This document shows, piece after piece, positions 35,101 through 35,990 of a DNA stretch of 42,227 bases; position 1 is the stretch's first letter, and each line of letters opens with the position of its first letter. The stretch spans positions 1-42,227 of the forward strand of contig PGXW01000023.1 in NCBI GenBank assembly GCA_002839355.1, in the 5' to 3' direction. This DNA comes from Spirochaetae bacterium HGW-Spirochaetae-2 (GTDB taxonomy: Bacteria; Spirochaetota; Spirochaetia; Sphaerochaetales; Sphaerochaetaceae). Under the pieces are notes generated by a model that did not search any database, was not told where the DNA came from, and was given only the letters and a program-made list of their open reading frames with translations. The translations under genes and the position numbers were made by a program.

Positions 35101-35128
35101 TTGAAAATTCACAATTTTGTCCTATACT
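35101..35128 (+). promoter_or_regulatory. Promoter reading into the structured leader and gntR
   Basis: -35 TTGAAA (35101-35106), 16 bp, -10 TATACT (35123-35128). Transcription would begin near 35135, exactly where the long leader stem begins. Confidence 0.72.
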
Positions 35129-35133
35129 GTGTG

Positions 35134-35297
35134 CTAGTGGTCTGTAAAGCTAAAGACTTGTCAGTTGACTTCGAGTGTAAGTGGAGTGTGGCTAGGCCAA
35201 GGAGAAGAGGATAGCAAGATATCCGATTCGACACGAACGCCGCCACACACCGCTTGGACCGAAGGAAAGTAACGTATGTAAGTTTATAGACCACTGG
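35134..35297 (+). ncRNA. Highly structured 164-nt leader (riboswitch-like) or MITE-like insertion before gntR
   Basis: The ends pair as a 15-bp stem: 35134-35148 with 35283-35297, no mismatch, two G-U pairs. Inside, 35178-35192 pairs with 35242-35256 with one A-A mismatch, extended by GGC/GCC. The enclosed loop has hairpins GGATA/TATCC (35209-35224) and TTCG/CGAA (35227-35237). The 3' arm of the closing stem ends right before the gntR ribosome site GAGGAG. It fits no riboswitch class I know. The same end inverted repeat, read as DNA, could be the terminal repeats of a small non-autonomous element. Confidence 0.6.
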
Positions 35298-35312
35298 ATG
35301 AGGAGTCCCTGA

Positions 35313-35990
35313 ATGGTAAAGAAGAAGTCGTTGATCGTTCCTGTCCGCGATCAGATATTCAACAAGATACGCAATGCAGTGCTGAGCAACGACTACCAGC
35401 CGGGGGAAATCATACCGATCGATAGGATTGCCCGCGAGTATGGTGTCAGTTCGACGCCGATCCGCGAGGCCTTTATCCGCTTGGAGAGTGCCGGACTGCT
35501 CACCCTGATCCCCAACCGGGGAGCAATGGTGGTCGAGGTCACCCAAAAGGATATCCTCAATATCTGGGAGATGCGCAAGCTTATCGAGCCCTACGCCGCC
35601 AAGACGACGGCCCAGTACGATATCGAAGCGGATATTTGCAAGCTGGAGAACGATGTCCGCACGCTCTTGGAGAATAATTTCGAGCGGGACCTCTATATCG
35701 CAACGGACGAGAATGTCCACATGCTGTTCTTCAAGCATATCGACAACGATTTGATGCTGGAGACGATCGAAAAGATCAACAATATCTCGTTGCGCATGCG
35801 CTACCAGGCCGAGAATTTCTCCAAGCGCAACGAGGCGATCATGCGCGAGGTGTGCACCGAACACCTGCAGATCCTCGACTGCCTCAGGAGCAAGGATGTC
35901 CAATGCATCGAGCGGGCCATCTACACCCACCTCGAGAACGGCGAGTTGCGCACCCTGCGCTCGCGCGCCGTGGATAGACCGATACAATAG
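35313..35990 (+). CDS. GntR-family (FCD) regulator divergent from the Opp operon
   Basis: This protein of 225 residues has a winged-helix domain (about 10-75; REYGVSSTPIREAFIRLESAGLLTL) and an FCD domain (EMRKLIEPYAAKTTAQYDIEA onward, with the ENVHMLFFKH stretch near the metal/ligand site). GAGGAG lies 7 bases before ATG 35313. It probably represses the divergent Opp operon and perhaps the SDR/DUF885 pair, which share operator-like motifs (inference). Its own mRNA carries a long structured leader, unusual for this family. Confidence 0.92.
   Translation: MVKKKSLIVPVRDQIFNKIRNAVLSNDYQPGEIIPIDRIAREYGVSSTPIREAFIRLESAGLLTLIPNRGAMVVEVTQKDILNIWEMRKLIEPYAAKTTAQYDIEADICKLENDVRTLLENNFERDLYIATDENVHMLFFKHIDNDLMLETIEKINNISLRMRYQAENFSKRNEAIMREVCTEHLQILDCLRSKDVQCIERAIYTHLENGELRTLRSRAVDRPIQ

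Follow-up and report, generated by a model that had tools for sequence, protein, structure and literature searches.

Positions 35134-35297 of the window (the whole stretch of DNA analysed, 42,227 nucleotides of contig PGXW01000023.1 of Spirochaetae bacterium HGW-Spirochaetae-2) are, with a probability of roughly 0.9, a non-autonomous MITE of the IS630 type, about 158 bp in length, which was inserted at a TA where transcription of a gntR gene is predicted to start. This reading is favoured because the element occurs in several copies, because a related genome preserves the empty site, because the target is a TA within CTAG and because the ends are IS630-like. What appeared to be an orphan regulatory RNA is explained in this way as the insertion of a transposon at a transcription start. 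The object is of an ordinary kind, and its conserved, covarying core is the one feature that merits a closer look.

The gntR locus with and without the element

The gntR gene (35313-35990, + strand) encodes a protein of 225 amino acids with GntR and FCD domains. It is preceded by a sigma-70-like promoter, TTGAAA-16-TATACT (35101-35128, + strand; 10/12), from which a transcription start at about 35135-35136 is predicted; the stem begins at this point, as an earlier note on the sequence had stated. The same two positions (+ strand) are the left copy of the TA target site, which lies within CTAG. The mobile element proper, a member of subfamily A, fills the 158 bp from 35137 to 35294 (+ strand) and is followed by the right copy of the target site, a TG that has diverged from TA (35295-35296, + strand). 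The terminal inverted repeats extend over 35134-35150 (+ strand, CTAGTGGTCTGTAAAGC) and 35281-35297 (- strand). The closing stem of 15 bp was found as described earlier, with 35134-35148 pairing with 35283-35297, and its arms can indeed be read as terminal inverted repeats, AGTGGTCTRTAAA being exact at both ends (35136-35148 and 35283-35295). The right arm directly adjoins the GGATGAGGAG ribosome site; the ribosome-binding region (35299-35312, + strand) leads to the gntR ATG at 35313. The minimum free energy of the element is -73.9 kcal/mol, compared with -49.3 +/- 4.3 kcal/mol for 200 shuffles, none of which was equally stable (z -5.69). Instead of the second helix and two separate hairpins of the first description, the predicted fold consists of a single long hairpin with interruptions, topped by an apical hairpin at 35209-35224 (+ strand).

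In the sister genome G001, which belongs to the same genus, the orthologous gntR (92% identical) has kept the promoter and an identical ribosome-binding region, and the element is absent. The empty site reads CTATACTGTTTGA-TA-CATGAGGAG, with the core letters GTTTGA-TA-CATGAGG, and the filled site CTATACTGTGTGC-TA-[GTGGTC...GACCAC]-TG-GATGAGGAG; a single TA in G001 stands where the window has TA-element-TG. Two details of this comparison count against an IS630-type insertion, namely that the junction bases are not the same in the two genomes and that the right target copy is TG instead of TA. CTA stands at the junction of three more orthologous unfilled sites; at a fourth, a deletion scar, no more than 16 bp remain from the left end, and a fifth site is ambiguous. 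Among 44 well-ended copies, a TA flanks the left end in 33, the right end in 28 and both ends in 23, often as CTAG. The comparison of filled and empty sites also renders the effect of the element on gntR directly testable.

A family of copies with IS630-like ends

Searches for other genomic copies, as had been suggested earlier, found many of them, both in the window's own genome (G000) and in its relatives. A BLAST search of the own genome with a query of 212 bases returned nine matches, eight of them beyond the window copy. Each of these eight spans some part of query positions 33-195, a range that takes in the element but excludes the promoter. There were 13 matches in G001 and 19 in G007, a genome of another genus. 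Searching with a covariance model based on 18 copies gave 13 matches in G000, 15 in G001, 14 in G007, 13 in G116 and one to three in each of six other genomes, counts in which a palindromic copy is sometimes matched on its reverse strand as well; the own genome holds about a dozen copies. By this model the element is present in 10 of 139 Sphaerochaetaceae genomes, in three genera, and in a class-wide scan of 395 genomes it was found solely in Sphaerochaetaceae. Named records with copies include Sphaerochaeta sp. UBA6084 and HGW-Spirochaetae-4. A search of IMG/VR gave no match, and no description of the element in Sphaerochaeta or other spirochaetes was found in the open-licence literature. A single exact match on a contig of a 'Firmicutes' MAG (L060, PHAA01000045.1) repeats the G000_C2 copy together with its flanks and is probably a binning error.

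Nearly all copies are 158-165 bp long, thus under about 300 bp, and contain no transposase gene. Three subfamilies can be told apart by their ends: A (CTAGTGGTCTGTAAA), which includes the window copy, B (CTAGTGATCTGTAACA) and C (CTAGTGGGCTGTAAA). Genes for transposases of the IS630 family (PF13358) are present in G000, G007, G002 and G138, and the IS630-family elements measure 1255 bp in G002 (L152) and 1253 bp in G138 (L150). The ends of these two elements start with CTAGTAGCTTGTAAACACTAAAACTT (in G138, CTAGTAGTTTG...) and CTAGTAGCTTGTAAAGTCTAATTCTTCAATT, and the left end of a G007 copy of subfamily A matches the CTAGTAGCTTGTAAACACTAAAACTT end at 21 of 26 positions. When end-to-end scores were judged against 300 shuffles, the subfamily A copies of G007 scored 32 on the left (shuffle maximum 20) and 34 on the right (shuffle maximum 21), and the ends of subfamily C likewise scored above the shuffles. 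The ends of the window copy are marginal (left, 23 against a shuffle maximum of 21; right, not above the shuffles), and for subfamily B the match to IS630 did not exceed the 300 shuffles. The elements of L150 and L152 thus share with the MITE the CTAG start and, in subfamilies A and C, 25-31 bp of similar sequence at the left and right ends, but they are about 1.25 kb long, encode the PF13358 transposase and show no MITE core inside. An intact IS630 with identical ends was not found in the window's own genome, whose one IS630 (L048) has ends that are related yet different. Some copies of the MITE adjoin an IS630 end at a common CTAG. An IS630-family transposase would presumably have moved the element in trans by recognising its ends of about 30 bp, and the element would have been inserted at the TA dinucleotide at the gntR transcription start. 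The earlier note had offered a MITE as one of two readings, and it is this half that is strongly supported, by the many copies, the empty site in the sister genome, the TA/CTAG targets and the ends resembling an IS630-family element. The family would be one more among the few bacterial MITE families linked by their ends to an element of the IS630 family.

The conserved core and its possible causes

A core of about 110 nt is common to the three subfamilies. In the window copy, the 5' strand of its covarying stems is CTTCGAGTGTAAGTGGAGTGTGGC (35169-35192, + strand) and the 3' strand, ending in GGACCGAAG, lies at 35240-35264 (+ strand); the two strands of a near-invariant internal loop are AGGCCAAGGA (35194-35203, + strand) and GACACGAAC (35230-35238, + strand). 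Covariation was tested on 43 copies, in an alignment made independently of structure. The 30 consensus pairs are formed in 95.5% of cells, a proportion that drops to 29-45% in slid pairing controls. In half of these pairs (15/30) both partners vary, and double-change cells number 197, where 76 are expected from shuffling (0/500 shuffles); a parsimony count on the tree gave 19 pair-preserving double events. For example, CTTCG/CGAAG of subfamilies A and C corresponds to CTTGG/CCAAG in B, and GAA/TTC, AGC/GCT and GGA/TCC are covarying examples near the apex. Per-column identity is 94% in the internal loop (columns 61-70 and 98-106) and 75% in the remaining core; of 5995 block placements, only one reaches the same conservation. 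Compensatory changes in homologues, which the earlier note had named as a check, are therefore abundant, but they are those of a whole mobile family and not of gntR leaders, and they show no clear bias towards one RNA strand. Together, the covariation and the invariant loop exceed the known needs of IS630 transposition, and this counts against a simple MITE.

These properties invite the proposal that the core is a mobile functional module, a structured RNA or hairpin DNA which is selected for its own function and rides on IS630-type ends. With stacked tandem mismatches between isolated G-C pairs, covarying stems and an invariant loop, the element would then be more than a passive MITE. Orthologous copies of subfamily B, which are 97-98.7% identical while their flanks are 89-97% identical, agree with such a function, whereas orthologous copies of subfamilies A and C are no more conserved than their flanks, and no promoter belonging to the module was identified. 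Selection on RNA was assessed through G-U and A-C intermediates, with pairs chosen symmetrically for both strands because single-strand RNAalifold favours G-U pairs. There were 15 G-U against 12 A-C events in the core (p 0.7) and 22 against 13 overall, neither difference being significant; with near-equality in the core, the data give no indication of selection on the RNA of one strand. On this evidence an independently selected module seems rather unlikely.

The absence of a clear strand bias would also suit DNA processes alone, in which compensation is mimicked by recombination between copies, or by template switching or conversion affecting the two arms, structure itself being under no selection. 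Between the orthologous copies of G116 (L115:7586-7750) and G125 (L120:2515-2679), all 13 differences fall in the right part; the left 86 positions show none and the flanks none or almost none, a pattern that resembles the conversion of one arm. Conversion, however, would not keep a non-complementary internal loop invariant, nor would it yield arms that match at stem positions only, and it is doubtful that such processes suffice. For the IS630-type MITE, the hairpin core with its invariant loop would most simply be a structure or binding site that mobility requires, or one that is tolerated in either strand. The constraint may lie on hairpin DNA or on RNA, or may result from arm conversion, and with a core common to three subfamilies the family lends itself well to the question of whether selection acts on the fold of bacterial MITEs, as DNA or as RNA.

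In subfamilies B and C, the loop (window 35194-35238) admits a model with an isolated G-C pair at every third base; purine-rich mismatches of two bases would then separate the pairs, which hardly vary, and tandem GA/GA would adjoin the apex. A small conserved peptide encoded in the core was considered and rejected, since the frame that is open in subfamily B has a TAG in most copies of subfamily A.

Gene context, related repeats and the gntR leader

The copies are mostly intergenic and often lie beyond the 3' ends of genes and between convergent genes; the flanking genes, called as simple ORFs, are unrelated and stand in all relative orientations. The ends of the element give stop codons (TAG of CTAG, TAA of TGTAA) to adjoining reading frames, so that several genes terminate 4 or 14 bases into it, for example at L135 2471, L139 2769, L121 8311 and L123 2599. 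A palindromic form, intergenic positions near 3' gene ends and the additional presence of a REP-like family might suggest a REP- or ERIC-like repeat that spread by a mechanism other than that of IS630, but the TA/CTAG targets, the true terminal inverted repeats and the IS630-matching ends make this very improbable, and the REP-like family, nested within some of the copies, has a sequence of its own. This second repeat, of about 73-93 bp and often in tandem, has 44 matches in G000, 50 in G001 and none in G007 or G116. Several copies of subfamilies A and B harbour it at their apex, in one case reversed (examples of the repeat are G001:C40:174-270, G001:C15:46933-47028, L139 in G000:C80 and L142 in G000:C37), and two copies of subfamily B retain a short GAAAGGT relic of it there. 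Tiny elements consisting of nothing but the two terminal repeats, a palindrome of about 26 bp, occur at L033:2405-2435 (G000:C55:39908) and L039:2478-2508 (G001:C135:8993), and are apparently orthologous between the two genomes.

Among known repeats, the RUP of pneumococcus is a MITE of 107 bp for which mobilisation by IS630-Spn1 has been proposed; it is likewise a short, protein-less and mostly intergenic palindromic repeat with IS630-like terminal repeats and a TA target (PMC2229807). The Sphaerochaetaceae element differs from it in its length of about 158 bp and its conserved covarying core, the likeness being one of features and not of sequence. The Correia or NEMIS elements of Neisseria, of about 107-155 bp, resemble it in their TA ends and in transcripts that form long stem-loops (PMC2229807, PMC10969869), but have other terminal repeats. 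The ERIC repeats of enterobacteria also combine a conserved long hairpin with TA ends and locations near 3' gene ends; no parent IS is cited for them in the same two papers (PMC2229807, PMC10969869), and they too are likened to the element by features and not directly by sequence.

The other half of the earlier either/or reading, a new ligand-controlled riboswitch or attenuator specific to gntR, is hardly credible, for although the highly structured region starts at the predicted +1 and ends at the ribosome site, the orthologous gntR of G001 has the same promoter and no element, other copies stand at unrelated genes, often past their 3' ends, and show no orientation bias (13 vs 10 among co-directional gene pairs), Rfam scans at gathering and relaxed thresholds gave chance matches only, and neither a terminator nor sequestration of the ribosome site is predicted in the leader. 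As an inserted MITE, the element would now be transcribed from the gntR promoter as a 5' leader, whose hairpin is predicted to bury the 5' end of the mRNA (the first five bases are 9% unpaired) and to leave the ribosome site open. Both the Shine-Dalgarno sequence and the ATG are accessible in the predicted leader, and the start codon is predicted to be 85% unpaired with the element, compared with 25-34% without it. From a buried 5' end, an open ribosome site and the lack of a predicted terminator it follows that the likeliest effect, as far as folding models can indicate, is on mRNA stability or RNase III processing rather than ligand switching; the leader would most likely stabilise the mRNA or become a substrate of RNase III. 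The RNAs of Correia elements have been reported to undergo cutting by RNase III within mRNAs (PMC10969869).
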